Notes under the pieces: model-generated
The model's input: only the letters and a program-made list of their open reading frames with translations
The model's database searches: none
What the model was told of the DNA's origin: nothing
Shown: positions 2,760 to 64,000 of the stretch, piece after piece
How the letters are laid out: the number at the start of each line of letters is the position of its first letter
Position numbering within the stretch: position 1 is the stretch's first letter
Translations under genes and position numbers: made by a program
Source of the DNA: Asticcacaulis aquaticus
GTDB lineage: Bacteria; Pseudomonadota; Alphaproteobacteria; Caulobacterales; Caulobacteraceae
DNA length: 64,000 bases
NCBI RefSeq assembly: GCF_028550415.1
Contig: NZ_JAQQKX010000011.1
Location: 62,001 to 126,000 of the forward strand
Reading direction: 5' to 3'

Positions 2760-3282
2760 TTTCAACTCCCAGCAGCGCACACAGCCGCGCACGGCCCCGC
2801 TGAATATGCGATTTTACGGTGCCGAGGGGAAGCCCCAGAATCGCGGCGGCCTCAGTATGGCTGTAGTCTTCGGCGACGCAGAGCGATACCGCGGCACGCT
2901 GCTCGACCGGCAGGGTCTGCATGGCGGCGTCCAGCGTCAGGCGCGTCTCGTGCGCGGGCGTCTCGGCGTCGTCGCGCAGGGATAGCCAGGCGGCGTCGCG
3001 TTCGCTGCCGCGTTTCAACCGTCGCCGGTCGTTGAGCGCCTTGCGGTAGGCGATGCCGCAGACGAAGGTGCGGAACGCGACGCCCGGCGCGATACGGTCA
3101 AGGCGCGACCACGCGGTGACGAAGGCTTCCTGCGCCAGATCGTCGGCATCGGCGGGGGTGGCGACCAGACGACGCAGGAAGGCGCGCACCGCCTGCTGAT
3201 GCGCGCCGACCAGAGCCGCGAAGGCCTGATCCGATCCCTGCTTCGCCTGCGACAGGCGTGTGTCGTCCCCCGGCTGGCGCAC
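2752..3282 (-). CDS. ECF-type RNA polymerase sigma factor
   Basis: 176 residues with both ECF domains. Region sigma-2 lies around residues 20-65 (AFLRRL, DADDLAQEAFVTAWSRLD). Region sigma-4 is at about 120-170 (LPVEQRAAVSLCVAEDYSHTE, then the recognition helix LGLPLGTVKSHIQRGRARL). Translation starts at GTG (3282), one base after the stop of the membrane protein upstream, with AAGGA about 5 bases before. Operon order is membrane protein, sigma, membrane anti-sigma candidate. The target regulon cannot be read from the sequence. Confidence 0.93.
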   Translation of the reverse strand: MRQPGDDTRLSQAKQGSDQAFAALVGAHQQAVRAFLRRLVATPADADDLAQEAFVTAWSRLDRIAPGVAFRTFVCGIAYRKALNDRRRLKRGSERDAAWLSLRDDAETPAHETRLTLDAAMQTLPVEQRAAVSLCVAEDYSHTEAAAILGLPLGTVKSHIQRGRARLCALLGVEND

Positions 3283-3283
3283 C

Positions 3284-3676
3284 TCAGTCCTTACGCTCGG
3301 TGCGCAGGCGGTAGATGAGCAGGATCAGCATGATCAGCGCGGCGGGCGCGAAGCCCAGACCCAGCGCGATGAACACGGTCTCGCCCGTGCGCCAGCCGGT
3401 GTAGCCAAACGCCAGCGCCAGCGCCGCGAACACGGTGAAGGCGGAAACGAGGCTGGTGATACGGCCGGAGCGCGTGCCGCCGCAGCCGTCCGTACTGTCG
3501 TTGTCGCTGAGGGTGGCGAGCAGGGCGGGCGGAGGTTCCTTGCCCTGTTCGACGTAGAAGCGGATCAGGCGGATCTTCTCGGTCCGCGCGCGGTGGGCGC
3601 TGTACATGCTGAAAAAGCCCATCCCCATCCCGAGGATCGGGAAGATCAGCCACCAGTACTGATGAAAATAGTCCAT
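3284..3676 (-). CDS. DUF6249-like membrane protein
   Basis: 130 residues: an N-terminal membrane segment (WWLIFPILGMGMGFFSMY), a short basic cytoplasmic stretch with the family-like IRLIRFYVEQGKEPPPALL, then two more membrane segments and a charged C-terminus. Such proteins are often encoded beside ECF sigma genes. It is the first gene of the three-gene operon, with a good ribosome site (AAAGGAAATCAATC-ATG). The function is unknown; a role in sensing or signalling to the sigma factor is inferred from position only. Confidence 0.8.
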   Translation of the reverse strand: MDYFHQYWWLIFPILGMGMGFFSMYSAHRARTEKIRLIRFYVEQGKEPPPALLATLSDNDSTDGCGGTRSGRITSLVSAFTVFAALALAFGYTGWRTGETVFIALGLGFAPAALIMLILLIYRLRTERKD

Positions 3677-3899
3677 GATTGATTTCCTTTGCGCCGGACG
3701 ACCCCTGTGGCGTCCTTATGCGACTGAATGTCCGCCGGGGCGGGTATTGGATGCGGATCACGAAAATTTTTTCGATTCGATCCCCGAATTCCTTTTCAAA
3801 ACGTGACTGGAACGCGCGCACGGTAATCTTTCATTATCCATAATTCCCCCATAAAGAGCGCGTAAAGACGTCCTGAAGAGATTTGTCGGGAGAGACCCC

Positions 3900-5051
3900 A
3901 TGCGCGTACCGTTTCTTTTATCCACGCTTCTGGTGGCCGGTGTCGGCCTGACCGGGTGTACGGTCGCGCCGCAAGCTCCCAAATATCCGATCTATATGCA
4001 GGACAAGCCGGTCGCCGAAGCGCCTTCGCCGGAAAAAGCCCTCACCCCTGAAAAGCCGGTCGATGAAAACGCCGGGGTGCAGGGATTGGGCACGAAGGGT
4101 GAGATCACCACCAACGAATTGCCGCCCCCACCGCCACCCCCGCCGCCGCCGGTCGAGAAGGTGGTCGCGGTGAAAGCGCCCGAGGTGAAACCGGGTGCGC
4201 CGAAACCGGCCGTCGCCCCGGCGGTAAAGACGCTCACGGCGGGTTATGTCTATACGCTTCAGGCGCAGGATACGCTGTACGGCGTGTCGCGCCGGTTCGG
4301 CGTGCCGATTCAGACGCTTTATCAGATGAACGGCCTGACCGCGGCGTCGGTGACGCGCATCGGTCAGAAGGTGCTGCTGCCGGAAACGGCGAAGGACAAG
4401 GGGCTTGAGGCCTATGCCAACGGTCCGGCGCCGGAAAAGGTGAAGACCGTCGTCGCCCAGGCCGACAAGGCACCCGCGCCTAGGCCGGTCGAAAAGCCGC
4501 CGGTCAAGGTGGTCGACGCCACGGTCGTCACGCCGGCGCCGAAGCCCGTCGTCGTGCCGCCTGCGCCGAAACCGGTCGTCAAGGAGGCCGAAAAGGTCGA
4601 GCCGATCAAGCCGGCGGCCCCGAAGGTGTTCCCGGATTCGACCGGTATCGCCAGACTGGGCAAGGGTAAATTCGTCTGGCCGTACAAGGGCAATGTGCTG
4701 GTTCGCTACGGTCAGCTGGGGCCGAACGTGCGCAATGACGGCATCAATATCGGTGGTCCGGAAGGGGCCGAGGTCGTGGCCGCCGATGAAGGCATCGTCG
4801 TCTATGTCGGCGATCAGGTGAAAGAACTGGGCAACACCGTCTATATCAAGCACGCCAACGGTTTCTATACGGGCTATTCGCATCTGGGCAAGGTGAGCGT
4901 GAAGGCCAACCAGAAGATCGAGCAGGGGCAGGCGTTGGGGACGCTGGGCAAGACCGGGGCGGTCGACCGCGCGCAACTGCACTTCGAGATCCGCTATACG
5001 CCGTCGTCGGAAATCGCCAAGCCGATCGATCCGACCCTGGTCCTGCCGTAA
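3900..5051 (+). CDS. NlpD-like LysM/LytM lipoprotein (probable amidase activator)
   Basis: 383 residues, exported lipoprotein: signal peptide with lipobox LTGC, so lipidated Cys20. A proline- and alanine-rich linker follows (ten prolines at 75-84), then a LysM peptidoglycan-binding domain at about 116-162, a second Pro/Ala linker, and a C-terminal LytM/M23 domain from about 265. The M23 zinc site is incomplete: the usual HxGxDI reads NDGINI and the HLHFE motif reads QLHFEIR, while GYSHLG keeps its His. E. coli NlpD is degenerate in a similar way and activates cell-wall amidases, so a regulatory rather than hydrolytic role is likely. It lies between pcm and yajC. Confidence 0.88.
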   Translation: MRVPFLLSTLLVAGVGLTGCTVAPQAPKYPIYMQDKPVAEAPSPEKALTPEKPVDENAGVQGLGTKGEITTNELPPPPPPPPPPVEKVVAVKAPEVKPGAPKPAVAPAVKTLTAGYVYTLQAQDTLYGVSRRFGVPIQTLYQMNGLTAASVTRIGQKVLLPETAKDKGLEAYANGPAPEKVKTVVAQADKAPAPRPVEKPPVKVVDATVVTPAPKPVVVPPAPKPVVKEAEKVEPIKPAAPKVFPDSTGIARLGKGKFVWPYKGNVLVRYGQLGPNVRNDGINIGGPEGAEVVAADEGIVVYVGDQVKELGNTVYIKHANGFYTGYSHLGKVSVKANQKIEQGQALGTLGKTGAVDRAQLHFEIRYTPSSEIAKPIDPTLVLP

Positions 5052-5181
5052 ACCGTTTGCACGATAGGCCCTCATAAGGGCGCATAAAAAGCGCATTGAC
5101 CTTTTTGTTTCTGCGCCTATGTATGGCGCATCGATAATTGCGCCTGTTTTCAGGCCCCAATGAGACTAACGGAGAACCGTC

Positions 5182-5481
5182 TTGGATCAAGCTGCCCTGC
5201 TTCAGCTTCTGCCCTTCGTGGCGATTTTCGCCCTGATGTACTTCCTGATCATCCGCCCGCAGCAAAAGCGCGCCAAGGAGCATCAGGCCCAGATCTCCGG
5301 CATCAAGCGTAATGACACGGTCGTCCTGTCGAACGGCATGATCGGCAAGATCACCCGCGTCGAAGAGGCCGAGGTGATGGTCGAAATCGCGTCGGGCGTC
5401 AATGTCCGCGTCGTCAAGGCGATGGTCACCGAGGTGCGCACCAAGGGTGAGCCCGCCGCCGCCAACGACAAGGCCGCCTAA
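5182..5481 (+). CDS. yajC: Preprotein translocase subunit YajC
   Basis: Small inner-membrane partner of SecDF, 99 residues. A single N-terminal membrane segment (LLPFVAIFALMYFLIIRPQQKR) is followed by the typical cytoplasmic domain with RNDTVVLSNGMIGKITRVEE. The start codon is TTG with GGAG eight bases upstream; no better ATG exists. A terminator follows at 5501-5533, so secDF, though adjacent, probably has its own promoter. Confidence 0.96.
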   Translation: MDQAALLQLLPFVAIFALMYFLIIRPQQKRAKEHQAQISGIKRNDTVVLSNGMIGKITRVEEAEVMVEIASGVNVRVVKAMVTEVRTKGEPAAANDKAA

Positions 5482-5500
5482 TACCTCTCCGAGCTACCCG

Positions 5501-5533
5501 GCCTGTTCGCATATCCTGCGGGCAGGCTTTTTG
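5501..5533 (+). terminator. Rho-independent terminator after yajC
   Basis: An 11-bp stem, gcctgttcgca / tgcgggcaggc, with a five-base loop (two G-U pairs), followed directly by a run of five T. Confidence 0.75.
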
Positions 5534-5540
5534 TGTTAGA

Positions 5541-5585
5541 GCGATATGTCGAAAAGTGTACAGCGGTTTTCGACTATAATATCGC
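5541..5585. repeat. REP-like palindrome, 45 bp
   Basis: Nested inverted repeat with outer arms gcgatat / atatcgc and inner arms gtcgaaaa / ttttcgac. The core cgaaaagtgtacagcgg is shared, with one change, with the palindrome at 40340-40384. It sits between the yajC terminator and secDF. Confidence 0.8.
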
Positions 5586-5621
5586 GACAGTCAAAAATAG
5601 TATATTCAGGTTTCTCCGCCC

Positions 5622-8210
5622 ATGATGCAAACATCCCGCTGGAAAATCGCACTGGTGGTCATCGCCACCCTTGCCGGTATCTGGTTTTCCCTGCCGAATC
5701 TTCTGCCGCAGGGCGTAAAGGACGACCTGAAGTTCCTGCCGCAGAACGGGCTGAACCTCGGTCTCGACCTTCAGGGCGGATCGCAGCTCCTGCTTGAGGT
5801 CGATACCGATGCTCTGGCGGCGGAGCGCGTCAAGAACCTGACCGAAGAGGTGCGCGAACGTCTGCGGACCGCGAATATCGCCTTTACCGGCCTGACGGCT
5901 CAGGGCGACACGGTGCGCGTCAATATCACCGACGCGGCGCAGGTGACGCAGGCCCAGACGGCGCTCAACGCCCTGTCGACGCCGCTGGCCAATAACCCGT
6001 CGGCGCGCGAATTCACCTTGAACCGCGACGGTCAGGCCCTGCGCCTGACCTATACGACCGAAGGCAAGGCTTCGGCGGCGACCGGGGCGGTGGACGCCTC
6101 GATCGAGACGGTGCGTCGCCGGATTGACAATCTGGGCACCAAGGAACCGACCATCATCCGTCAGGGCAGCAACCGCATCATGGTGCAGGCCCCGGGCGAG
6201 AGCGATCCGGAGCAGCTCAAGCGCGTCATCGGCACCACGGCCAAGCTGACCTTCCAGATGGTCGATCAGTCGGTCAGCCAGAGCGATCTGGCGGCCGGGC
6301 GTATTCCGCCGGGTTCCGAGCTGCTGCCGACCTCCGACCCCAAGCTGGCCCCCGTCATGGTGGTCAAGAAGCGCGTCGTCGTGTCGGGTGAGAACCTGAC
6401 CAAGGCCTTCGTCGATACCGATCAGAACGGTCGCCCGGCCATCGGCTTCCGCTTCGATGGTCAGGGCGCGCGCAAATTCGGCGAAGTCACCGCCGCCAAT
6501 ATCGGCAAGCCGTTCGCCATCATCCTCGACGGCAAGATCGTGTCGGCCCCGAACATCGTCAGCGCCATCACCGGCGGTTCAGGTCAGATCACCGGCGGCT
6601 TCTCGATTCAGGAAGCCTCGGAAATGGTCAATATCCTCAACGGCGGTGCGCTGACCGCGCCGCTGAATATCGAGGAGCAACGCGTCGTGTCGGCCGAACT
6701 GGGCGCCGACGCGGTGGCCAAGGGCGGCCTGTCGACCGTCATCGCCTTCATTTCGGTGCTGATCTTCATGGTGCTGGCCTATGGCTGGCTGTTCGGCGGT
6801 ATTTCGATCGCCGCACTTCTGGTCAACCTTGTCCTGCTGATCGCCGGCATGTCGGTGACGCAGGCCACCCTGACCCTGCCCGGCATCGCCGGTCTTATTC
6901 TGACCCTCGCCGTGGCCGTCGACGCCAACGTGCTGATCTATGAGCGGATGCGCGACGAGGTACGCTCGGGCCGTAATGTCATCGGGGCGCTCGACGCCGG
7001 TTTCTCGAAGGCTATGGAAACCATTATCGATGCCAACCTGACCTCACTGGGCGCGGCGGCGATCATGTTCTTCTTCGGCGCGGGTCCCGTGCGCGGCTTC
7101 GCCTGGACCCTGTCGCTCGGCGTCGTGACCTCGGTCTTCTCGGCGGTTCTGGTGACGCAGGTTCTGCTGGCCTGGTGGTATCAGGCGCGCCGTCCGAAGA
7201 CCCTGCCGATCGAGGATCACGTCTCAAACTCCAAGTGGCCGCTGATCAAGATCCTGCCGCAAAAGACCAATTTCAACTTCGTCCGCTTCTCGAAAATCGC
7301 GGGCATGGCCTCGGTGGTTCTGGTCTGCGCCTCGCTGTTCTTCACCATCTGGCCGGGCACCCCGCCGTGCGGCGGCCTGAACTGCGGCGTCGATTTCAAG
7401 GGCGGTACGATCCTCGAAATGTCGAATCCGCAGCCGGTCGGCGACGAAGCGGTGCGCGATAATCTCAGCAAGCTGGACCTCCACGATCTTCAGGCTCAGG
7501 GTGCGGGTACCACCGGTCAGGACGTGCTGATCCGGTTCGAGACCCCGACGGGTAATCCGCAGATTGCCATCGACAAGGTTCAGAACAGCCTCAAGGCTGA
7601 ATTCCCGGGGGCGACCTTCAAGCCCGCCACCGTGGTCGGCCCGAAGGTCTCGGGTGAATTGCTGACCGGCGGCGTGCTGGCCCTGGTCTGGGCCATCGGC
7701 CTGATGATGGTCTATATCTGGTTCCGGTTTGAGTGGCAGTTCGGTCTGGGGGCCGTGTTCGGCCTCGTCCACGACGTGATCCTGACGTTCGGCCTGTTCG
7801 CCGTCTTCAAGCTGGAATTCACCCTGACGGCGGTCGCGGCCATCCTGACGATCATCGGTTATTCGATGAACGACACCGTCGTCGTGTTCGACCGCATCCG
7901 TGAGAACCTGCGCAAGTACAAGAAACTGCCGCTTAAGGACGTGGTCGACCTGTCGATCAACGAGACCCTGTCACGGACGATCATCACCGGCGTGACCGCG
8001 GTCATGGCCCTGACCGGTCTGGCCGTGCTGGGCGGCGAAGCGCTGTTCTCCTTCTCGGTGGCGCTGATCTTCGGGATTATCATCGGCACCTATTCGTCGA
8101 TCTATGTGGCGGCGCCGGCGATCCTGCTGTGGGGCGTCAACCGCAACCAGACCGAAGCCGAGGTCGTCGATGTCGGCGGCTTCAAGGGCAAGAAGTCGCC
8201 GCAGGGTTAA
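5622..8210 (+). CDS. secDF: Fused SecDF protein-export protein
   Basis: 862 residues joining SecD and SecF in one frame; together they use the proton gradient to drive late export through SecYEG. The SecD half (about 1-530) shows LGLDLQGGSQLLLEVD, the P1 periplasmic domain and six membrane segments including AVAVDANVLIYERMRDE. The SecF half (about 545-862) begins with a membrane segment, then GVDFKGGTILEM, and has the conserved GYSMNDTVVVFDRIREN. The joint falls around YQARRPKTLPIEDHV. Many relatives encode secD and secF as two genes. Two adjacent ATGs are possible starts; the ribosome site is weak. A strong terminator follows. Confidence 0.96.
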   Translation: MMQTSRWKIALVVIATLAGIWFSLPNLLPQGVKDDLKFLPQNGLNLGLDLQGGSQLLLEVDTDALAAERVKNLTEEVRERLRTANIAFTGLTAQGDTVRVNITDAAQVTQAQTALNALSTPLANNPSAREFTLNRDGQALRLTYTTEGKASAATGAVDASIETVRRRIDNLGTKEPTIIRQGSNRIMVQAPGESDPEQLKRVIGTTAKLTFQMVDQSVSQSDLAAGRIPPGSELLPTSDPKLAPVMVVKKRVVVSGENLTKAFVDTDQNGRPAIGFRFDGQGARKFGEVTAANIGKPFAIILDGKIVSAPNIVSAITGGSGQITGGFSIQEASEMVNILNGGALTAPLNIEEQRVVSAELGADAVAKGGLSTVIAFISVLIFMVLAYGWLFGGISIAALLVNLVLLIAGMSVTQATLTLPGIAGLILTLAVAVDANVLIYERMRDEVRSGRNVIGALDAGFSKAMETIIDANLTSLGAAAIMFFFGAGPVRGFAWTLSLGVVTSVFSAVLVTQVLLAWWYQARRPKTLPIEDHVSNSKWPLIKILPQKTNFNFVRFSKIAGMASVVLVCASLFFTIWPGTPPCGGLNCGVDFKGGTILEMSNPQPVGDEAVRDNLSKLDLHDLQAQGAGTTGQDVLIRFETPTGNPQIAIDKVQNSLKAEFPGATFKPATVVGPKVSGELLTGGVLALVWAIGLMMVYIWFRFEWQFGLGAVFGLVHDVILTFGLFAVFKLEFTLTAVAAILTIIGYSMNDTVVVFDRIRENLRKYKKLPLKDVVDLSINETLSRTIITGVTAVMALTGLAVLGGEALFSFSVALIFGIIIGTYSSIYVAAPAILLWGVNRNQTEAEVVDVGGFKGKKSPQG

Positions 8211-8233
8211 GCCGTTCGCCTTTAAAAACATCA

Positions 8234-8266
8234 AACCGCCCGGTCAGTGCCGGGCGGTTTTTTGTT
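8234..8266 (+). terminator. Rho-independent terminator after secDF
   Basis: Perfect 10-bp stem aaccgcccgg / ccgggcggtt with a six-base loop, then tttttt. Confidence 0.9.
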
Positions 8267-8298
8267 GCTTTTGCTGCCGGTGGGTTTAAGCGAGCGTC

Positions 8299-8991
8299 AT
8301 GTCCGAAGCCTTGACCGATAACGAAACCGTGCCGCGCGACGAGATCGTCCGCCTGAGCGCCAACTTCATCGACGATGCGCAAAAGCGTGAGCAGGTGCTG
8401 GCGATTTTCGCCTTCATCGAACTGCTGCGCGACGTTCCGGCGCGCGTGTCGGAGCCGCTGCTGGGCGATATCCGCTATACGTGGTGGCTTGAGGCCATCG
8501 AGGAAATCGCGGCGGGCGGCAAGGTGCGTTACCACCCCTTAAGCGCCGCGCTGGAGCCGTTGATCCGTGAGCACGGCCTCGACGCGGAGGCTTTCCGTGA
8601 GGCCATCGAGGCGCATCGCGTCTTGCTCGATGGCAAGCTGTCGATGCGTGATGCGCTTAATGTCGCCGATCAGGGCATCGTCGTGTTGATCCGGCAGGCG
8701 GCGCAGTTGCTCGACGCCGAGGCCGATCTTGACACCCTTGCGGCGCCCGCCCGCTTTCAGGCTTTGGCGGCGTTGAAAGCGGCGCGTCTGCTCAAGGCCG
8801 AAGAGGCTGGGGAGGTCGAATACCGGCACCTGTATCGCGAAGCCCGCGCGGCGCTGAAACGCGTTCCCACGGCTTTGTTGCCGCTGGTTCTGCCGTCGGC
8901 TCTGGCAGGGGATGCGTGGTTCGGCCGGACGCGCGGGGCGTTTTCGGTCCGCGCCCGCCTGTTGTGGGCGTTCGTGTCGGGCCGGATTTAA
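8299..8991 (+). CDS. Squalene/phytoene synthase-family protein, NDUFAF6-like
   Basis: 230 residues, all-helical, resembling the non-enzymatic branch of the trans-isoprenyl synthase fold. The family landmark is LAIFAFIELLRDVPARVSEPLLGDIRYTWW, comparable to the EPLLGxIRxxWW stretch of NDUFAF6-like proteins. The two Asp-rich DxxxD substrate motifs of true phytoene synthases are not visible and the chain is short. A helper role, for instance in respiratory complex assembly as for mitochondrial NDUFAF6, is more likely than terpene synthesis; this is inference. It overlaps the convergent lipoprotein gene by four bases. Confidence 0.82.
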   Translation: MSEALTDNETVPRDEIVRLSANFIDDAQKREQVLAIFAFIELLRDVPARVSEPLLGDIRYTWWLEAIEEIAAGGKVRYHPLSAALEPLIREHGLDAEAFREAIEAHRVLLDGKLSMRDALNVADQGIVVLIRQAAQLLDAEADLDTLAAPARFQALAALKAARLLKAEEAGEVEYRHLYREARAALKRVPTALLPLVLPSALAGDAWFGRTRGAFSVRARLLWAFVSGRI

Positions 8992-11250: not shown

Positions 11251-12039
11251 ATGAGTTTCGGTCCGGCGTTCCATCTGGTGGGCGCGTTGAAAAGCGCGGT
11301 GACGACCTTGCCGACCCTGTGGCGTCAGGCGTGGCTGGCGCTGCTCGTCCTGTTCGGGCTGGTTCTGATTAGCCAGTTACCGCAGATCGGCCTGGGGACG
11401 CGCCGCGCGCTGATCGTGGCCAGCCTGCTGTTTCAGTTCGTGGTCGCGGGCGGCCTCTACCGCGTCGCCCTGTTTGGGGAGCGCTATGCCAAGCCCGAAG
11501 GTCTGGGCTTCGGCGGGGTGCAGTTCGGTAAGCCGGAGGCGCGTCTGATCGGTGCCGGGCTGCTGGCCGGATTGTTCTGGCTGATGGTGTTTGCGACCCT
11601 ATGCGTGGTGCTGGCCCTGTTTCTCGGGGCGGCGGGCCTTGCGGATCAGAGCCACAACACGCCGCACGGCTTCTTCCTCGAACTGGTCAACGGGCCTCAG
11701 CCGCAGGGCGTCGTGCTCCTCGTGGCCATTGCGGGGGTCATGTTGACCCTGACCATCCTGTCGGTGAAGCTGTGGCTGCATCAGGCGGCGACGGTGGCCG
11801 AACACCGGGTCGTGTCGTTGAATGCGCTCACCCTGTCGTCGGGGCAGACGGTCAAGCTGTTCCTCGGCTATCTGTATCTGGCCCTGCCGTTCATCGTTCT
11901 GAGCGCGGTAATTCCGACGGCGGGCAACCTGTCCCTGATCGTCAATCTGGCCTTAGGCGTCGGCGTCTTCCTGCCGGTCAGCATCGCTTTTTTAGCCTCG
12001 GCCTATAGGCAAATCATGGACCTGCGCGCTAAGGGATAG
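11251..12039 (+). CDS. Integral membrane protein of unknown function (paralogue A)
   Basis: About 262 residues with six or so membrane segments and no recognised domain. The start is uncertain: in-frame GTG at 11230, ATG at 11242 and ATG at 11251. The last is preferred because GGGGA ends ten bases before it. It shares a loose pattern with the next gene, including a GxYRxxLxG segment after the second membrane helix and an amphipathic stretch followed by L-T-S-G-Q before the last helices. The two are probably old duplicates. Thirty-one bases separate it from the next gene, so an operon is likely. Confidence 0.75.
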   Translation: MSFGPAFHLVGALKSAVTTLPTLWRQAWLALLVLFGLVLISQLPQIGLGTRRALIVASLLFQFVVAGGLYRVALFGERYAKPEGLGFGGVQFGKPEARLIGAGLLAGLFWLMVFATLCVVLALFLGAAGLADQSHNTPHGFFLELVNGPQPQGVVLLVAIAGVMLTLTILSVKLWLHQAATVAEHRVVSLNALTLSSGQTVKLFLGYLYLALPFIVLSAVIPTAGNLSLIVNLALGVGVFLPVSIAFLASAYRQIMDLRAKG

Positions 12040-12070
12040 TCTGTACAAGATTTCTCCCGAAAGCCGCCCC

Positions 12071-12970
12071 ATGGCCCTGTCCGTCGATTTCGCCTTCGAA
12101 GGGTTTCGCATCATCCGCGAACGCCCCATCCTTATCGCGTGGTGGGGCGCGGTCTTGCTGGTCGGGGTCGTCCTGTCGACGGCCCTGCTGATGTCGGTCG
12201 CCGGGCCCGAGTGGAACGCCCTGATTCAGGGGCAGGTGCCGGAAGACCCGCAAAAAGCCGCCGATATCATGCTGCGTTTCGGACCGGCCTATCTGCTTAC
12301 CCTGATGATGTCCCTGATATTCAATGCGGTGATCACCTGCGGCGTCTATCGCGCCGTGCTGGGCGGGCATTCACCGCGGTTCGGCTACCTTAGACTGGGG
12401 GCCGACGAGGTGCGGCAGATCGTTCTCTATTTTATCCTGTTGTTTCTGGTGCTTGTTGTCGGCCTGACCTGCGCCGTGGTGCTGAGCATTGTCGGGGGGT
12501 TGCTGTCCATGATCGCCGGGGCCGTCATGTCGGCTCTGGTGCCATTGGTCGGCGCGCTGACTTTTCTGGCGGCGGTCATGGCCAATATCTGGCTGATGGT
12601 GCGTCTGTCGATGGTCAGTGTGCAAAGCTTCGAGGAGCGGCACCTCAATATCACCGGCTCGCTCAGACTGACTCAGGGGCGGTTCTGGTCGTTGCTGGGC
12701 GGTTTCGCTCTGGCGTTTCTGCTGACCGTGGTCGTTATCGTACTGTTTCAGTCGATCTACATGGCGCTGGCCGCGCTGATTAGCGGTAAGGACATCGAAA
12801 CCCTGTCTGAAATCCCGCGCCCGGATATGTCGCAACTGGCCAATATCCTGCTGCCGCTGAATGCGCTGTCCCTGCTGGTCAGCGGCCTCATCGCGCCCCT
12901 GACCACAGCCATTCTGGTCGGTGCCGGAGCCTCGGCCTACAAGATGCTGAAAGCGGCCCGGGCGGTTTAA
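12071..12970 (+). CDS. Integral membrane protein of unknown function (paralogue B)
   Basis: 299 residues with about six membrane helices. The N-terminus (SVDFAFEGFRIIRERPILIAWW) looks like a cytoplasmic amphipathic helix leading into the first membrane segment. The organisation resembles the preceding gene: GVYRAVLGG after helix 2, a FGYLRLGADEVRQ loop, and SLRLTQGRFWSLLGG before the final pair. No catalytic motif is seen. Its 3' end overlaps the convergent carbonic anhydrase gene by four bases. Confidence 0.8.
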   Translation: MALSVDFAFEGFRIIRERPILIAWWGAVLLVGVVLSTALLMSVAGPEWNALIQGQVPEDPQKAADIMLRFGPAYLLTLMMSLIFNAVITCGVYRAVLGGHSPRFGYLRLGADEVRQIVLYFILLFLVLVVGLTCAVVLSIVGGLLSMIAGAVMSALVPLVGALTFLAAVMANIWLMVRLSMVSVQSFEERHLNITGSLRLTQGRFWSLLGGFALAFLLTVVVIVLFQSIYMALAALISGKDIETLSEIPRPDMSQLANILLPLNALSLLVSGLIAPLTTAILVGAGASAYKMLKAARAV

Positions 12971-13845
12971 CCGCCGATAATGTGCAATATGTCGCGGCCC
13001 TGCGCCGTCTGGATCGGGCGGGCATTGGGGCCGGTCAGGCGCTGATAGGCGTCGACCTGTTCGGCGCTGATCGACAGCGGCGAGGCATAGACCAGCCAAG
13101 TGACGTTTTCCGAGCACGGCGGCGTGGTCAGCGAGCCCGAATAGGCATAGAATTCCTCGGTCGCCGGCATCAGGTCGCGCGCATTGATCAGCACGTCGGG
13201 GATGACCGCCGCCGGACCGGGATCGGTCGGGAGATACGTCCAGATCGGCGCCAGCATCGGGTCGGCGACCCCGACATCCGACAGGACGCCGATGACCAGC
13301 AATTCACCCTTATCGTTCTTATGGACGAAGTGCGCCTCGATGGCGGCGCGATGGCCGTCGATCGTGTGTTCCGACGGGGTGTGGAAGTGGAACTGGATCA
13401 GCTTGTACCGCACATTGTCCATGATGACGCCGCCGCCGTCGGTCGGCGAGACCTGAACGACGTGGCCGAGGTTCTGGATCTTGGCGGCGGACGAGGTGTA
13501 GTCGAGCGTCATATTGACGGTCTTGGCCCCGGCCATACCCGACAGGTTGATCGGCGATTGCCGGTGCCCCGTACCGCAGGTCTTATTGTCGCCACCGAGC
13601 TGGCTCCAGTGGGTCGGGCCATCGTCGCCTTCGTAGCTCCAGTGGGCGATCTGCGCCATTTGCGCGCCACCGTGTTCAGCATCGCCGTGTCCGGTATCCG
13701 CCGCATCACCATGGCCTTCGGCCGCCGCATGGGCATCGCCGCCGCCGTGATCGGCGCCATGTTCAGTTTTAGGCTTGCCGCCGCAGGCCGTCAGGCCCAT
13801 CAGGGCGAAGGCGGCAACCGAAAACAACAGGGCAGGGCGGCGCAT
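12967..13845 (-). CDS. Alpha-type carbonic anhydrase lipoprotein with His-rich linker
   Basis: Interconverts CO2 and bicarbonate outside the cytoplasm. 292 residues: signal peptide with lipobox LTAC (lipidated Cys21), then a linker at about 28-68 with seven or eight His among Gly, Ala and Asp, then the alpha-CA fold. Zinc ligands are H153 and H155 (QFHFHTPSEH) and H172 (EAHFVHK). The gate residues are in SLTTPPCSE (about 238-246), and C90 and C244 probably form the usual disulfide. The start ATG is supported by the signal peptide. The His-rich linker may hold zinc; this is inference. Confidence 0.93.
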   Translation of the reverse strand: MRRPALLFSVAAFALMGLTACGGKPKTEHGADHGGGDAHAAAEGHGDAADTGHGDAEHGGAQMAQIAHWSYEGDDGPTHWSQLGGDNKTCGTGHRQSPINLSGMAGAKTVNMTLDYTSSAAKIQNLGHVVQVSPTDGGGVIMDNVRYKLIQFHFHTPSEHTIDGHRAAIEAHFVHKNDKGELLVIGVLSDVGVADPMLAPIWTYLPTDPGPAAVIPDVLINARDLMPATEEFYAYSGSLTTPPCSENVTWLVYASPLSISAEQVDAYQRLTGPNARPIQTAQGRDILHIIGG

Positions 13846-13937
13846 GGCGGAATCCGAATCTGAGCGGGAATGTTCTCAGATTAGATGCCCGAATAGGGTT
13901 AACGCCGGGTTCATAGGTTGGCTACGATGTGAAGAAA

Positions 13938-14093
13938 GGATTGGCCACGAAAAACACGAAAAGCACTAAAAAGATGCGTCACCGGCTTTGCGCGAAGCGC
14001 CACAAATTGAGCCGCACCGCTATGCAAAAGGCCCTTTGGGCAAATATGTTTTAATCTGCTTTTTTGTGCTTTTCGTGTTTTTCGTGGTTAAAT
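13938..14093 (+). repeat. Interspersed 155-bp element, copy 1
   Basis: A roughly 156-bp unit with long terminal inverted repeats: left end ccacgaaaaacacgaaaag, right end the complementary cttttcgtgtttttcgtgg. The interior has aaaaagatgcgtca, gcgcgaagcgc and a gccctttgggc hairpin. A second copy, inverted, lies at 56039-56193 with the same ends and interior landmarks. It fills the space between the carbonic anhydrase start and the uvrA stop. No open frame is seen. It could be a miniature inverted-repeat element or a structured RNA. Confidence 0.82.
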
Positions 14094-16997
14094 CTACTTT
14101 TTCTTCCGCGTCTTGTGCCGCGCCAGAATGTCTTTCAGATATTTGCCCGTCCACGATTTCGGATTGTCCGACACCTTTTCCGGTGTGCCGAAGGCGACGA
14201 TTTCGCCGCCGCCATCGCCGCCTTCCGGGCCGAAATCGAGCAACCAGTCCGCCGTCTTGATGACGTCGAGATTGTGCTCGATGACTACCACCGTATTGCC
14301 GTGGTCGGTCAGTTCGTGCAGCACTTCCAGCAGCTTGCGCGTATCCTCGAAGTGCAGCCCGGTCGTCGGCTCATCCAGAATATAGAGCGTCTTGCCCGTC
14401 GCGCGTTTCGACAGTTCCTTCGACAGCTTGACGCGCTGGGCTTCGCCGCCGGAGAGCGTCGTCGCCTGCTGACCGATCTTGATATAGCCCAGCCCCACGC
14501 GTTTCAGCGTCTCCAGCTTGTCGCGGATCGTCGGCACGGCCTTGAAGGCCTCGGCGCCTTCCTCGACCGTCATGTCCAGCACGTCGGCGATGGAATGGCC
14601 CTTGAACGAGATTTCCAGCGTCTCGCGGTTATAGCGCTTGCCCTTGCACACGTCGCAGGTGACGTAGACGTCGGGCAGGAAGTGCATCTCGATCTTGATC
14701 AGGCCGTCGCCGGTGCAGGCTTCGCAGCGCCCGCCCTTGACGTTGAACGAGAAGCGCCCCGGACCATAGCCGCGCGCCTTGGATTCGGGCAGACCGGCGT
14801 ACCAGTCGCGGATCGGCCCGAACGCCCCGGTATAGGTCGCCGGGTTCGAGCGAGGGGTGCGGCCGATGGGCGATTGATCGATCTCGACCACCTTGTCGAA
14901 GAACTCCAGCCCTTCGATCTTATCATGCGGGGCAGCATTGGCCGAGGCGTTGTTCAGCCGTCTGGCCGCCGCTTTGTGCAGAGTTTCCAGCGTAAACGAC
15001 GACTTGCCGCCACCGGAAACGCCGGTGATGCAGGTCATGACGCCGACCGGGATTTCGCCGGTGACGTTTTTCAGGTTGTTGCCGCGCGCTCCGATAACCC
15101 TGAGCATCCGCTTCTTGTCGATGGGGCGGCGTTCCTGATCGGTGTCCTTCGAGAAGAACAGCGGGATTTCACGCTTGCCGGTAAGATACTGACCGGTCAG
15201 GGATTTCGGGTTGTTCTTGACCTCTTCGGGCGTGCCTTCGGCGACGACTTCACCGCCATGCACCCCGGCAGCGGGGCCCATGTCGATGACGTAATCGGCG
15301 GTCAGGATGGCGTCTTCGTCGTGTTCGACCACCAGCACGGAGTTGCCGAGGTCGCGCAGACCCTTGAGGCTCTCCAGCAGGCGGTCGTTGTCGCGTTGAT
15401 GCAGGCCGATAGACGGTTCGTCCAGTACGTATAACACGCCGGTCAGGCCCGAGCCGATCTGCGAGGCCAGACGGATGCGCTGCGATTCCCCGCCCGACAG
15501 GGTGCCGGAATTGCGCGACAGGTTGAGATAGTCGAGCCCCACCGCATTGAGGAAGTTCAGACGATCCAAAATCTCTTTCAGGATACGCCGGGCAATATCC
15601 ATCTGCTTTTCGCTCAGATGCCCCTCAAGCGCCGCGAACCATTCGTGCGCCTTCTTGATCGACAGTTGCGAAATTTCGGCGATGTCGCGGGCATCGACCT
15701 TGACCGCCAGGGCTTCGGGCTTGAGACGCTTGCCGCCACAGGCCTCGCACGGCGTTTCGGCCTGATAGCGACCGAGATCTTCGCGCACCCACGACGAATC
15801 CGTTTCACGGTAGCGGCGCTCCATGTTCGGGATGACGCCCTCGAACGGCTTGGTCACATCGTAGCGGCGCGAACCGTCCTGATAGGTAAACTTGATCTTT
15901 TCCGAGCCCGACCCTTGCAGGATGATGTTCTGAGCGTCGGGCGTCAGGGCGCGCCACTTGGTGTCCATCTGGAAACCGTAGTGCAGGGCCAGGGCCTCAA
16001 GGGTTTGCGCATAGAGCGGCGAGGGGCCTTTGGACCACGGCGCGATGGCCCCGCCTTTCAGGGTTTCGGCCTCGTTCGGCACGATCAGGTTCGGATCGAA
16101 GGTCAGCTTGACGCCCAGACCGTCGCAGGTCGGACAGGCCCCGAACGGATTGTTGAACGAAAACAGACGCGGCTCGATCTCGGCGATCGTAAAGCCCGAC
16201 ACCGGACAGGCGAATTTTTCCGAGAAGATGATGCGTTGCGGTTCGGTCTCGCCTTCAGCTTTATCCGCGAATTCGGCGATGGCCAGACCGTCGGCCAGAC
16301 GCAACGCGGTTTCCAGCGAATCCGCCAGACGCTGCATCAGGCCGCCCTTTACGACGACGCGGTCGACGACGACGTCGATATCGTGCTTGTACTTCTTGTC
16401 GAGCTTGGGGGCCTCTTCGATGGGATAGTATTCGCCATTGACCTTGAGGCGCTGGAAACCCTGACGTTGCAGGTCGGCGATTTCCTTCTTGTACTCGCCC
16501 TTACGACCGCGCACGAAGGGGGCCAGCAGCAGCAGGCGCGTGCCTTCCGGCAAGGCCATGATCTTGTCGACCATCTGCGAAATGGTCTGGCTCTCGATGG
16601 GCAGGCCCGTGGCGGGCGAATAGGGGATGCCGACACGCGCCCACAACAGGCGCATATAGTCGTGGATTTCGGTTACCGTGCCCACCGTCGAGCGCGGGTT
16701 CTTAGAGGTCGTCTTCTGCTCGATGGAAATGGCCGGCGACAGGCCTTCGATCAGGTCGACATCGGGCTTCGACATCAGCTCAAGGAATTGCCGCGCATAG
16801 GCCGACAGGGATTCGACGTAACGGCGCTGCCCCTCGGCATAGATGGTGTCAAACGCCAGCGACGACTTGCCCGAGCCGGACAGGCCGGTCAGGACGACCA
16901 GCTTGCCGCGCGGAATGTCGACATCGACGCCCTTGAGGTTATGCTCGCGCGCGCCGCGCACCTTGATGAAGCCCTGCATCAGGTTCGAGCTGCTCAT
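14094..16997 (-). CDS. uvrA: Excinuclease ABC subunit A
   Basis: DNA-damage recognition ATPase of nucleotide excision repair, working with UvrB and UvrC. About 967 residues from the preferred ATG at 16997 (AAGGA eight bases before); ATGs 14 and 21 codons upstream lack such a site. Two ABC modules: Walker [10 protein letters not shown] (38-46) and GVSGGGKSS, with signatures [14 protein letters not shown] and [14 protein letters not shown]. The second zinc finger is complete (CEAC, CDVC). The first reads CPVSGF and [10 protein letters not shown], so one Cys is Ser. A perfect LexA box lies 169 bases upstream at 17166-17180. Confidence 0.97.
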
Positions 16998-59290: not shown

Positions 59291-60130
59291 ATGACCGATA
59301 CCCCTGCAACCGCACCCGCTCAAAGCTGGGCGCGTATTTCCATACCGGTATCGGGTTCGGACTCCGAAGCGGTCAGCGTCGATATCGCCGCCAGCGTCGC
59401 GGCGGGCTTTGGGGCGCAACTGAACTTCCTGTTTGCGCCGCCAGATCCGGCCGAACTGGCCCCGTGGCTGGGCGAAGGGTTCATGGGCACGGTGCAGGTC
59501 GCCGCCATGGATGGCCTGAAAACCGCCGCCGAAGAGGCCGAAGCCGCCGCGCGCGAGGCGTTCGACGCGCTCGGTTACGACAGCAAGGTCTTCCTGCCGC
59601 TGAAATCACCGGTGTGGCAGTGTCTGGCGGTCGAGACGCGCCTGTCCGATCTGGTGGTTTTCGGGGATGAGAGCGCGCGCGGACGCGGCCTTCTGTCCGA
59701 GGCGTTCCAGCAGGTGCTGATGGAAGAGCGTGCCGGGGTGTTTATCGCCCGTCAGCCGTTCGACCTGTCCGGCCCCGCCGTCGTGGCGTGGGACGGCAAG
59801 GAGCCGTCGTCGCGCGCCGCCCGCCGCGCCATTCCCTTACTGAAAAAGGCCTCGAAGGTCGTCATCGTCGGCGCGCCGGTCGGCGAAAGCCCCGCCGATC
59901 TCGGTAAGCTGGCGCGCTACTATATGCTGCACGGCCTGAATGTCGAAATCGACCTGCTGTCCAAGACCAATGATCTGATCGGGGCGCTGGTCGAGGCCAA
60001 TAAGCGGCATGGCGCGCAATATATGGTCGCCGGGGCCTTCGGGCGGTCCCGCCTGCGCGAATTCGCCTTCGGCGGCACGACGCGCGCCCTGCTGCATAAT
60101 ACGAACCTCAACCTCTATATGGCGCACTAA
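59291..60130 (+). CDS. Universal stress protein (tandem UspA domains)
   Basis: 279 residues from ATG 59291 (GGAGG six bases before); the in-frame start at 59246 adds residues without a site. Two UspA-like halves: ARISIPVSGSDSEAVSVDIAASVAAGF and GPAVVAWDGKEPSSRAARRAIPLLKKA. The C-terminal half ends with YMVAGAFGRSRLREFAFGGTTRALLHNTNLNLYM, matching the G-2x-G-9x-G(S/T) nucleotide-loop region. Cytoplasmic stress protein of unknown exact role; ends four bases past the stop of the convergent giant gene. Confidence 0.9.
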   Translation: MTDTPATAPAQSWARISIPVSGSDSEAVSVDIAASVAAGFGAQLNFLFAPPDPAELAPWLGEGFMGTVQVAAMDGLKTAAEEAEAAAREAFDALGYDSKVFLPLKSPVWQCLAVETRLSDLVVFGDESARGRGLLSEAFQQVLMEERAGVFIARQPFDLSGPAVVAWDGKEPSSRAARRAIPLLKKASKVVIVGAPVGESPADLGKLARYYMLHGLNVEIDLLSKTNDLIGALVEANKRHGAQYMVAGAFGRSRLREFAFGGTTRALLHNTNLNLYMAH

Positions 60131-63100
60131 ACGCTCGATAAGCTTAAGGCCTTGAGGCTTATCGCCACGTGTGAGAGCAGGGCGGCCCAGTCGTTATGCT
60201 GCGGCTGGAACAGGCGGACCTTGGGGTACCAAGGATAATGATCCGTCCCGAGCGTCGTCCACGTGCCGGTGGGCAGCAGCATCCACACCGTCGCCCCTGT
60301 CGCGGCGGCGATTTGTGTCGTGGCGTTCGACGGGCCGATGATCAGGTCGAGTGCGGCGCAAAGCGCACTCAGTTCGTCCAGATCGTTCATCAGATCGATC
60401 GGCGGATTGTAGATATGGTATCCGGCGGCCTTCGCCTCGGTCAGTTCGGCCTCGACATCGCCATATTGCAGATTGACGAAGACCGGGCCGGATTGCGACA
60501 GGATCGGCGTCCACTGATCGAGCGCCGAATAGAAGCGTGACCGGCGGCTGTCGTTCTTGAGGCTCTTCCACAACAGCCCGACCTTGGGGCCGTCACCGAA
60601 TTTGGCCAGTTCCGCGTGCCAGAAGGCCACGCGCGTCGGGTCAGGTTGAAGATAGGCACCGGAGGCCGCGAAGGCCGCTGTGTCATTGCGATAGACCGGC
60701 AGGAAATCGCCCAGCAAGACCCATTCATCAATCGTTGATAATTCAAGATCCGGCACGCTGCGGTGGCGCAGACCGTCTTCAAAGCGCGTATGGTGGGCTA
60801 AAACCGTCGCTTGCGGGGCAGCGCGTTTGAACAGCGGCACCAGACGCGGTTCTACCGCCAGGGTCAGATGTCCCTCACCCAGATCGCGCAGGACATCCGG
60901 CAGCAGGGTTGCCAACATGACTTCGTCGCCAAGGCCTTGCTCCGCGACCACCAGCAAACGCCTTCCATCAATCGTTGATTTTGGATCGTGACGCGGCACA
61001 TTGATCTCATGGACCACGGCTTGCGGTGTCCCCTGCATATGCCGCGCCTCATAGGCCTTCCAGCCATCGGCGACGCGCCCCAACGCCAGATAGGCATAGG
61101 CCAGCGTCAGTTCGGCGGATCGCAGGTTCGACGGTTCGCTGAACCGGTCGAGGCAGACCTCGATATCGGGCAGGGCCTGGTCAGCCAATCCTTGCTCCAT
61201 CCACGCGCAGGCGCGGTTGAAACGCGCCGCCAGACTGTTGTCGAGGTTCACTGCCTCATTGAAGAATATCAGGGCGGTATCGAGGTCGCCCTGAGCCATC
61301 AATATGGTGCCCAGCGTGTCCCACAACTCGCTCTGTTTCGGATATTCGCCGAGATAGGTTTGCAGGGTTGCGATGGCGACGTCGTATTTCGACTGCTCGC
61401 GCAGGGCCGCCGCATAGTAGTTGACAGCGGTCAGGTGCGTCGGGTCGCGGGCGATGACGTGGGCGTAGAAGCGTTCCGCCATATCGTACTGACCGATGCG
61501 GAAGGCCAGTTGCGCCAGATCGGCGGCGATATCGAGCGAGTCCGGCTCAAGGCCCAGCGCCCGCTGATAGGCGTCGAGTGCTTCGGGCAGGCGGTTGAGG
61601 CGGTCGAGGGCGGTGGCCAGAGCCTGCCACGCGCCGGAATGGGTGGGTGCCACGTGGGTCAGGGCGCGGGCCTGCGCCTCGGCGTCGTCCCAGTCGCGCA
61701 TGAGCAGGGCGCGTTGCACCTGCTGATAGGTGCGGGCGAGATCGGCGGCGGGCGGGGCATCGATCGCTACAGCAATCTCCTCGATCAAGGCCTCGTGCAT
61801 GGCGGTCAGGGCCGGGGTCCAGTCGCTGAGGTCCGGATTGACGAACATGCGCGCCACGGCGTACCACGGATAATAGTCGGTCCCCAGCATCGGCCACGAA
61901 TTGGGCGGGGTGAGCAGCCAGATCGGCGTCCCGACGCCGGCGGCGATATTGCTGGTGGCATTCGACGGCCCCAGCACCAGATCGACGGCGGCACACAGGG
62001 CGCTCAGGTCGTCGAGGTCCTGTTTGAGGTCGATGCCCGGCGGGTTCCAGATCGTCAGGCCTTCGCGCGCCGCTTCGGCCAGTTCGGCGCTGGCGTCGCC
62101 ATATTGCAGATTGACGAAAATCAGCCCCGGCGTGCGCAGGATCGGCTTCCACGACTCGAACGGCGAGTAGTAGCGGTCGCGGCGGGAATGCTTGACGAGA
62201 CTCTTCCACAGGAGGCCAATTTTGGGGAAGGGCCCCAGCTTGTCGAGTTCGCCCTTCCAGTAGGCGACGCGGTCCGGATCGGGGGTGAGGAATGCCGTCC
62301 GTTTCGGGAAGTCGGCCACGGTCTTGCGATACTTCGGCAGGAAATCGCCCAGAACCGCAAAACCGGAATAGGGTGCAACATCAGTGATTTCCGGATAGAA
62401 TCTCACCTGATAGGTACTGTGTTTGGCGGTCAGGTGCGGCGTGACGTGCGCTTGCGGGTACGACCGCTGGAACAGCGACACCAGACGCTTTTCGACGGCC
62501 AGAGTCAGCTTGCCGTCCGGGCCCAGCTCTTCCAGCAGATCGGGCAGGAGAGTCGCAAACAGGATTTCGTCACCCAGCCCCTGTTCGGTTGAAATGAACA
62601 CCGACTGACCGCGCAGATCGGCCATGACATCCAGTTGCGGGATGTCGGTGAGGTACTTCATGCCGTCGTGGCCGTGGGTCTGTTTGCGCGCCTCGTAATA
62701 TTCCCAGCCGCGCGCAAGATCGCTCTTGAGGAAGTAGTTGAAGGCCTGAGCCAGTTGCGCCGCTTCGACGTGATTGGGGTCTTCGAACCGTTTCAGCGCT
62801 TCATCGAGGCTCTCTATAGCCTCATCGACGCGGCCGATATTGCCGAGGATCAGGCCGCGGTTGTGCCAGATCTTGCCGTTGCTTTTATCGTGTTTCAGCG
62901 CCTCGTCGAAGAAGATCAGGGCCGTGTCGAGATCGCCCTGGGCATTCAGCACCGTTCCCAGCGTGTTCCACAGGGCGGCATTGTCCGGGGTCTGCTCCAG
63001 CGCCGGGCGCAGAACCTCGATGGCGTCCTCAAGGCGGCTCATCTCGCGCAAGGAGCTGGCGTAATTGTTGATCGCTTCCGGGTGAAACGGCTCACGCTTC

Positions 63101-63684
63101 AGGACGTAGCGGTAGAACTGTTCGGCGTTTTCGTGCAGCCCCATGAAAAACGCCAGTCGCCCGATATCGTTGGCGATGCCGATATTTTCCGGCTCAAGCC
63201 GCATCGCTGCTTCGTAGCAGGAAAAGGCACCGCTCAGGTCGCCGGATTTTTCGCGACTGATGGCCAGTATGTGCCACGCCGTGGCGCATTTCTCGTCGAC
63301 CTCCAGCGCCTTGAGCGCGTCGTCCCCGGCCTCTTTGAATTCGCTGTCCTTGAGGTGGACGAGCGCGTCCTTCAGCTTATGGAGCAGCTCAAGCTGCTTG
63401 ATGTGGGCCGTGGTCTCCAGCAGCACGCGCAGGGCCTCGTTCGACAGGGAGTCGCCGAGGATGATCGACTGATCGTCGGGATTGCCGACGGGCTGGGGCA
63501 GGGCGGCGTCGCCGGATACCCGGATTTTCGCCGGATCGAAGGTCGCGGCAGGCTTCGGGTCGGGGCCCGGCTCGGGGTTTGGGGCGACCGCCGGCGTCAG
63601 GTGCCGGGCGATTTCGGGCGGCAGGTCGAAGGGAATCGCAGCGGGCTTTTGACCGGATGTCATGGGCCAGGTTTTTTTCGGCAT
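60127..63684 (-). CDS. Tandemly duplicated TPR plus glycosyltransferase protein (probable flagellin glycosyltransferase)
   Basis: 1185 residues from ATG 63684, with GGGAG six bases before. After a Pro-rich N-terminus (20-60) come TPR repeats at about 110-300, a GT9-like domain at 355-620, then a second TPR set at 650-850 and a second GT domain at 905-1165. The halves align over their full length with a period near 548: TLGT(V/I)LxAQGDLDTALIFF at 241 and 790, EQGLGDE at 367 and 915, KSL-x-SRR-x-R-x-YS, VNLQYGD at 524 and 1070, GPSNAT at 572 and 1117, GTD(Y/H)YPWY at 601 and 1146. The layout of each half is that of FlmG, the TPR-containing flagellin O-glycosyltransferase. flbT lies divergently 247 bp away. 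Confidence 0.85.
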   Translation of the reverse strand: MPKKTWPMTSGQKPAAIPFDLPPEIARHLTPAVAPNPEPGPDPKPAATFDPAKIRVSGDAALPQPVGNPDDQSIILGDSLSNEALRVLLETTAHIKQLELLHKLKDALVHLKDSEFKEAGDDALKALEVDEKCATAWHILAISREKSGDLSGAFSCYEAAMRLEPENIGIANDIGRLAFFMGLHENAEQFYRYVLKREPFHPEAINNYASSLREMSRLEDAIEVLRPALEQTPDNAALWNTLGTVLNAQGDLDTALIFFDEALKHDKSNGKIWHNRGLILGNIGRVDEAIESLDEALKRFEDPNHVEAAQLAQAFNYFLKSDLARGWEYYEARKQTHGHDGMKYLTDIPQLDVMADLRGQSVFISTEQGLGDEILFATLLPDLLEELGPDGKLTLAVEKRLVSLFQRSYPQAHVTPHLTAKHSTYQVRFYPEITDVAPYSGFAVLGDFLPKYRKTVADFPKRTAFLTPDPDRVAYWKGELDKLGPFPKIGLLWKSLVKHSRRDRYYSPFESWKPILRTPGLIFVNLQYGDASAELAEAAREGLTIWNPPGIDLKQDLDDLSALCAAVDLVLGPSNATSNIAAGVGTPIWLLTPPNSWPMLGTDYYPWYAVARMFVNPDLSDWTPALTAMHEALIEEIAVAIDAPPAADLARTYQQVQRALLMRDWDDAEAQARALTHVAPTHSGAWQALATALDRLNRLPEALDAYQRALGLEPDSLDIAADLAQLAFRIGQYDMAERFYAHVIARDPTHLTAVNYYAAALREQSKYDVAIATLQTYLGEYPKQSELWDTLGTILMAQGDLDTALIFFNEAVNLDNSLAARFNRACAWMEQGLADQALPDIEVCLDRFSEPSNLRSAELTLAYAYLALGRVADGWKAYEARHMQGTPQAVVHEINVPRHDPKSTIDGRRLLVVAEQGLGDEVMLATLLPDVLRDLGEGHLTLAVEPRLVPLFKRAAPQATVLAHHTRFEDGLRHRSVPDLELSTIDEWVLLGDFLPVYRNDTAAFAASGAYLQPDPTRVAFWHAELAKFGDGPKVGLLWKSLKNDSRRSRFYSALDQWTPILSQSGPVFVNLQYGDVEAELTEAKAAGYHIYNPPIDLMNDLDELSALCAALDLIIGPSNATTQIAAATGATVWMLLPTGTWTTLGTDHYPWYPKVRLFQPQHNDWAALLSHVAISLKALSLSSV

Positions 63685-63930
63685 ATCCAGCTCCCGCAGC
63701 AAGGCCTTGTATTATAAGCAGATTGCGGCAATTTCATCAAAAAAGCGACATTCTGCGATAGTCATGTCATCCTTATGGCTTGATTCGATAAGACCACGGT
63801 AACGGACACGGCGTCATAAACTTGCTGCCGCCCGCGTCGCCTGAAACCTGGTGTTAACTGTGTAAGGGTTAAGTTCGTCTCAGGCTGTGTCCTGAAGCGA
63901 CTGTTTCAGGCCGTGGCCAAGGGGATATCT

Positions 63931-64000
63931 ATGCCGCTCAAACTCTCGCTCAAGCCGGGTGAAAAATTCGTCCTTAATGGTGCGGTCGTGCAGAACGGCG
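63931..64000 (+). CDS. flbT: Flagellin-synthesis regulator FlbT, 5' end (cut by window edge)
   Basis: Only 23 codons are present: MPLKLSLKPGEKFVLNGAVV and on. This matches the FlbT N-terminus; FlbT is a post-transcriptional regulator that acts on flagellin mRNA. AAGGGGATATCT precedes the ATG. The upstream 246 bp contain two TTAA half-sites 11 bases apart (near 63854-63873), close to but not a consensus CtrA box. Confidence 0.9.
   Translation, partial: MPLKLSLKPGEKFVLNGAVVQNG

Follow-up and report, generated by a model that had tools for sequence, protein, structure and literature searches.

A probable fused pair of FlmG-type glycosyltransferase units beside flbT in Asticcacaulis aquaticus

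A single gene adjoining flbT in Asticcacaulis aquaticus encodes two complete units, each consisting of a TPR domain and a glycosyltransferase (GT) domain, and very probably corresponds to two FlmG-type flagellin O-glycosyltransferases fused together. The gene occupies positions 60127-63684 of the 64,000-nucleotide stretch of DNA analyzed here (the window), on the minus strand, as a single open frame of 1185 amino acids, beginning at 63702 at its longest, while the plus-strand reading of the same interval contains nine stops. A preliminary description of the window had recognized the full internal TPR plus GT repeat at this location, with the strand unstated, and the repeat is real: in the half-against-half alignment that had been called for, 226 of 492 positions are identical (46%, E 5e-150), residues 136-627 being aligned with residues 685-1171, a likeness not attributable to chance. 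The motifs named earlier are likewise present in each half (WKSL..SRR, VNLQYGD, GPSNAT, and GTD.YPWY), with EQGLGDE at residues 367 and 915, giving the expected period of 548. Compared as DNA, the halves match significantly only in patches, of 68-77% identity, so the duplication is not recent.

The order along the chain is TPR-A, GT-A, TPR-B, GT-B, with all features on the minus strand. An N-terminal tail of low confidence (residues 1-78, 63451..63684; mean pLDDT of 25-44 in model blocks 1-8) precedes TPR domain A (residues 83-338, 62671..63438), the expected flagellin-binding arm, followed by GT head A (residues 342-636, 61777..62661), in which a GT profile built from the units matches residues 347-632 and both core and FlmG-typical residues are kept. 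A short junction (residues 637-645, 61750..61776) leads into TPR domain B (residues 646-882, 61039..61749) and GT head B (residues 890-1185, 60130..61017), matched by the same profile over residues 894-1174. Both TPR domains have Pfam TPR matches and appear as helical repeats in the model.

The structure predicted for the whole protein has a mean pLDDT of 84.3, each unit being mostly confident, and a pTM of 0.51, so no confidence can be placed in the mutual arrangement of the two units; its alignment held only five fused rows over half B. Head B modelled alone reaches a pLDDT of 91.3 and a pTM of 0.90, and its best matches among solved folds are WaaF (1psw; E 8.4e-9, TM 0.59, rmsd 7.1) and the GT9 protein 3tov (E 2.6e-8), which substantiates the GT9-like fold proposed earlier. 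WaaC and TibC are also in the top rows of this search, along with a chain of the plant NDH-PSI complex at rank 3 and some GPCR entries. WaaF, WaaC, and TibC are thus among the closest solved folds, but without a sequence-profile match, and they have no TPR arm and use another donor. Searches against Pfam with E up to 1 give no match for either head and, lacking a match to a curated GT9 profile, the heads are not filed as GT9 here. A profile of the heads searched against PDB gave only two matches, at E 0.24, and no OGT chain at E up to 1, and no GT41 chain is found among the best 50 fold matches of head B alone. When the whole model is searched with Foldseek, the top hits are eukaryotic OGT and SPINDLY, with TM by query length of 0.17-0.23 in the first five rows, and the sequence match to these proteins falls in the TPRs. 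OGT and SPINDLY (GT41) likewise join a TPR arm to a protein-glycosylating GT head, but the GT41 catalytic domain was not found here.

The architecture of a TPR domain followed by a GT-B domain is that of FlmG, present twice per chain. Ardissone et al. (2020; PMC7591256) report that FlmG of Caulobacter crescentus is needed, and is enough, for flagellin to be modified in a Pse-dependent manner, and that its TPR domain binds flagellin. Expression of this FlmG in E. coli together with a flagellin and the Pse operon has also been reported. It resembles the fused protein in its N-terminal TPR and C-terminal GT-B domains, its flagellar setting and the presence of Pse genes in the genome, and differs in having one unit, of 596 residues, where the fused protein has two, with altered positions in head B. 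With two units in 1185 residues, rather than a single unit of about 600, the latter is best regarded as an FlmG variant, not as a plain member of the group. Relatives with one unit, whose existence had been assumed, are indeed found, one example being a Caulobacter vibrioides OR37 protein (L137), 48% identical to half A. Other examples are the tandem flmG-like pairs of Asticcacaulis taihuensis (L117) and Asticcacaulis endophyticus (L118), which have the same units, in the same place and order, but as two genes. The main text of PMC7591256 contains neither 'Asticcacaulis' nor 'duplicat', and a literature search over titles and the openings of abstracts, mostly outside subscription papers and bioRxiv preprints, returned no duplicated, fused, or multi-headed FlmG.

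As to the distribution of the fused gene, it is present in eight of 25 genomes of the genus (G000, G001, G006, G011, G012, G016, G019, and G023), and an assembly artefact is thereby ruled out. Fifteen genomes possess two adjacent single-unit genes in the same direction, one (G018) has a frame-broken second gene, and one (G005) has one unit only, suggesting that the second unit is dispensable in two of the 25. In G018 the second flmG-like gene (L047 7782-9163) lies in two overlapping frames and looks either broken or mis-sequenced, while the first gene is intact. In 12 of the 15 tandem pairs the end of gene 1 overlaps the first possible start of gene 2, at the place of the junction in the fused protein, by 4-157 nt as measured with the first possible start of each frame, and in three pairs there is a gap of 403-809 nt. 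The fused gene of Asticcacaulis sp. YBE204 is 94% identical in half A to that described here, and a fused gene is also found in Asticcacaulis currens. Across 249 genomes of the family, 192 have a match at E <= 1e-90. Of the matches listed (two candidates per genome were scored, the list ends at about 1e-140, and spanning matches sort first), only those of the eight fused genomes span both halves. Four of 80 named loci are fused, all from Asticcacaulis, in a list that may omit records near the window. One genome (G015; L072, L055), 4% contaminated, has a third FlmG-like gene beside flbT, with its tandem pair on a different contig.

The preliminary description had considered the duplication as internal to this gene, and this part is not sustained: the gene is the fused form of a tandem pair seen in most of the genus. 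In a careful tree of 43 of the 63 units, halves A of the fused proteins (fA) group with the first tandem genes (t1) with 93/91 support, and halves B (fB) with the second tandem genes (t2) with 100/100 support, single-unit relatives falling outside. A tree constrained to unite fA with fB is worse by 57.7 log units (AU p 6.3e-5), so a duplication private to the fused gene is rejected. The 20 rows omitted from this tree comprise long branches and odd copies (G025b, G034b, G026, G018, G015b, G005, and both G020 units) and near-copies (both units of G006, G023, G013, G004, G008, and G022). A quick tree of all 63 rows gives the same grouping, t2 with fB at 100 and t1 with fA, along with three single units, at 93, while a quick tree of the GT domains only disagrees, placing its four fused B heads outside t1, t2, and fA (support 81). 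Each of fA and fB forms one clade and their inner branching agrees, pointing to a single origin of the fused state in this sample. In both subtrees the first split is between fused and tandem forms, a pattern equally expected from fusion and from later fission. Trees and gene order together also place the gene as an ortholog of the flbT-linked TPR-GT gene of Caulobacteraceae.

The position next to flbT, claimed previously, holds: the flbT frame starts at about 63913 on the plus strand, divergently from the fused gene, and runs on past the window end (about 63913..64000; L003 4414-4857). It is followed by flaF and by three flagellin genes, this group also containing one further ORF. A 294-aa ORF lies tail to tail with the fused gene, and a fourth flagellin gene is found on contig C1. 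The third flagellin gene is followed by a 969-aa ORF (L003 9086-11995). In the genus, flbT and flaF lie beside the unit or units in 24 of 25 genomes, and flagellin genes are within the fetched stretch in 21 of 25. A crude count of flagellin Ser and Thr residues, covering 26 of 41 fetched stretches with uncurated starts and some flagellins missed, revealed nothing separating genomes with fused, tandem, and single units.

The A. aquaticus genome also encodes PseB, PseC, and PseI (contig C3, L205 5996-9290), all scoring over the NCBIfam cut-offs; these three steps are the evidence for the Pse pathway in this genome, and PseI is its sole nonulosonic acid synthase. The NeuB family (PF03102) is represented in all 25 genomes of the genus, with one copy in 18, two in six, and three in one. 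A single synthase is present in seven of the eight fused and in 10 of the 15 tandem genomes; G018 has one and G005 two. The explanation that two heads reflect two nonulosonic acid pathways is thus unsupported, and in A. aquaticus itself, with PseI alone, the heads do not track two such sugars. No match to Maf (PF01973) was found in this genome; the four matching controls were all archaeal, so a bacterial Maf may escape this search. In the A. endophyticus group, a 560-aa frame (L208 6963-8645) has a NeuB-like C-terminal part scoring under the PseI and NeuB model cut-offs.

Both GT domains had been thought possibly active, and the comparison of residues supports this as far as the core is concerned. 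The comparison drew on 68 named loci (72 GT domains), 17 single units, and 8 fA, 15 t1, 15 t2, and 8 fB heads, sets that partly share records (for example, L134 is G034). E367, Q368, G369, D372, E373, R400, W493, S495, R502, Q527, and G601 are identical in every row, and K494 has one exception. Asp372 of EQGLGDE in head A (62569..62571) is D in every unit compared, and its counterpart Asp920 in head B (60925..60927) is kept in all eight fused B heads; we take the Asp of this GD motif to be the place of the catalytic base in GT9 enzymes. The eight fused B heads all keep the equivalents of E367, Q368, G369, D372, E373, H417, R428, W493-S495, R502, Q527-G529, and D556. Twelve single-unit proteins from outside the genus share 78 invariant columns, of which 68 are conserved in half A and 63 in half B.

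The heads nevertheless differ from each other. At the position of K554, a Lys in all 38 fA, t1, and t2 units (8/8, 15/15, and 15/15), the fused B heads have L (four), M (two), R (one), or Q (one), the residue in A. aquaticus being Met1099 (60388..60390). At the position of N579, an Asn in the same 38 units, all eight have Q (Gln1124 here; 60313..60315). With a threshold of 90%, no other GT position is both fixed across fA, t1, t2, and a set of nine outside units and lost in all eight fused B heads. Elsewhere, the first is K in 68, R in three, and M in one of the domains from named loci, and K in 15, T in one, and M in one of the single units; the second is N in 66, C in five, and S in one, and N in 16 and A in one, respectively. 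G550 is likewise missing in all eight fused B heads and present in 34 of the 38 other units (8/8 fA, 15/15 t1, 11/15 t2), while W512 is lost in six of eight (L in five, F in one, retained in two). Both positions map to the C-terminal half of the head in the model, 554 to a loop and 579 to the beginning of a helix, and they may face the donor. In 26 distant heads, E367, G369, G371, D372, Q527, G601, and P606 are invariant, R replaces K494, H417 and R428 are not kept, and 554 and 579 are variable, suggesting that the latter two tune specificity and are not catalytic. A loss of sugar-nucleotide-binding residues in one half had been proposed as an argument against two active heads, and the replacement of K, N, and G in fused B heads may amount to such a loss in part, if these positions do contact the donor, but the positions shared with distant heads are intact. 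Judged from these replacements, head B may use a different donor or be weakly active.

Selection has acted on both heads. Across five close pairs dN/dS ranges over 0.065-0.095 in head A and 0.086-0.116 in head B, against 0.017-0.044 in TPR-B, with head B above head A in four of the five; in two more distant pairs the values for B versus A are 0.192 versus 0.217 and 0.184 versus 0.187. These low ratios indicate purifying selection on both heads. Mean identity between the two units is 34.6% (fA-fB) and 33.4% (t1-t2) in the TPR domains versus 48.3% and 50.8% in the heads, while TPR-B is 83.7% identical within the fused B halves. The divergence between units has thus gone more into the part that binds flagellin in C. 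crescentus.

The following model would accommodate these data. flmG would have been duplicated in an ancestor of the sampled Asticcacaulis, producing the pair, which in one lineage is one gene, through either fusion there or a split elsewhere. Flagellin would be held by each TPR arm in the cytoplasm until it is exported, and each GT9-like head would glycosylate Ser or Thr with a sugar taken from a nucleotide donor. Head A would be an ordinary pseudaminyltransferase, and head B most likely would also transfer pseudaminic acid, onto other sites or onto another flagellin. The same donor with different sites is favored for two reasons: the greater divergence of the TPR arms as compared with the heads, and the presence of only one nonulosonic acid synthase. 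The whole mechanism, with both heads of a fused FlmG-type pair placing pseudaminic acid at different flagellin sites, is advanced tentatively, its chances being somewhat short of even. Three other explanations have to be weighed against it. Head B could be non-catalytic in the fused lineage, unit B serving as a second flagellin-binding arm or as a cis partner of head A. This would agree with the replacements at 554, 579, 550, and, mostly, 512, with the elevated dN/dS of head B in four of the five close pairs, and with the tight constraint on TPR-B, but an inactive head should have lost its core, which is intact in all eight proteins, and head B still shows a dN/dS near 0.1, and one slightly under that of head A in the more distant pairs; we consider this explanation unlikely, though deserving of attention.

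The same replacements could instead reflect a two-sugar enzyme, in which head A transfers pseudaminic acid and head B another nucleotide sugar, onto other residues or onto the first sugar. The two positions, otherwise fixed and lost throughout fB, vary in the distant heads as expected of specificity positions. The t2 heads, however, keep both in 15 of 15 cases, so the duplicate has been retained without this change; the substitutions for K554 differ among the fused proteins, which looks like relaxation; and only one of the eight fused genomes has more than one synthase, in a survey of nonulosonic acid donors. On balance, two sugars seem rather improbable. That unit B serves a non-flagellin target, such as another exported flagellar protein, would explain the strong divergence of TPR-B from TPR-A, but it sits poorly with the location of the units beside flbT and flaF almost throughout the genus, and we regard it as very improbable.

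Multiplication of heads is not limited to Asticcacaulis. Of 385 sampled genomes of the class, 52 have a match at E <= 1e-40, and 13 stretches were fetched, picked for long frames or strong matches, so no frequency can be derived from them. They revealed seven multi-headed proteins in six genomes of Alphaproteobacteria, from two families: two-headed in G376, G294, G194, and G111, three-headed also in G111, and four-headed in G329 and G234; in G253 a frame of 1101 aa encodes a single head. These proteins (L192-L194, L196-L198) resemble the fused protein in their repeated units and in their proximity to pse or flagellin genes, but share 27-35% identity with it, have other residues at 579 and, partly, at 554, and R for K494, and in the GT tree a branch with support of 100 separates their heads from the FlmG side. 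In L194 and L198, pseI is on one side of the multi-headed gene and pseC-pseB on the other; L192 is flanked in the same way, by a synthase only 35% identical to PseI. The four-headed proteins (L196 3550-10266, 2238 aa; L197 5480-12223, 2247 aa) have EQG.GD in all heads and are encoded beside pseB and pseC, and in the genome of L197, pseI, a flbT-like gene, and flagellin are about 9-18 kb away (L210). L193 contains a three-headed gene (2837-8809), preceded by flagellin and a flbT-like gene and, about 8 kb upstream, by pseI (L213), as well as a two-headed gene (11436-14942). Tandem single-unit genes are found beside flagellins in G202 and beside pseI in G166; L163 also has three such genes, and L164 and L167 have two each, two of these last three loci bearing the name Phenylobacterium. 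In the phylum outside the class, frames of 1222-1311 aa (G545:C200, G539:C335, and G468:C55) have two matches each and are perhaps multi-headed.

Many heads beside one pse set may be a sign that heads multiply for sites and not for sugars. It is conceivable, if doubtful, that a gain of two to four heads took place on more than one occasion among FlmG-like enzymes encoded close to pse or flagellin genes, allowing several sites of one held flagellin to be glycosylated per visit, and that head B of the fused Asticcacaulis protein has moved to another donor.

In conclusion, FlmG is a case of a cytoplasmic glycosyltransferase choosing its protein via a TPR arm, and one genus now presents such units fused, adjacent, or with one missing, with up to four heads found elsewhere. 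Swapping or inactivating heads makes the number and the kind of flagellin sugars directly testable, and multi-head enzymes offer parts for engineered multi-site O-glycosylation.
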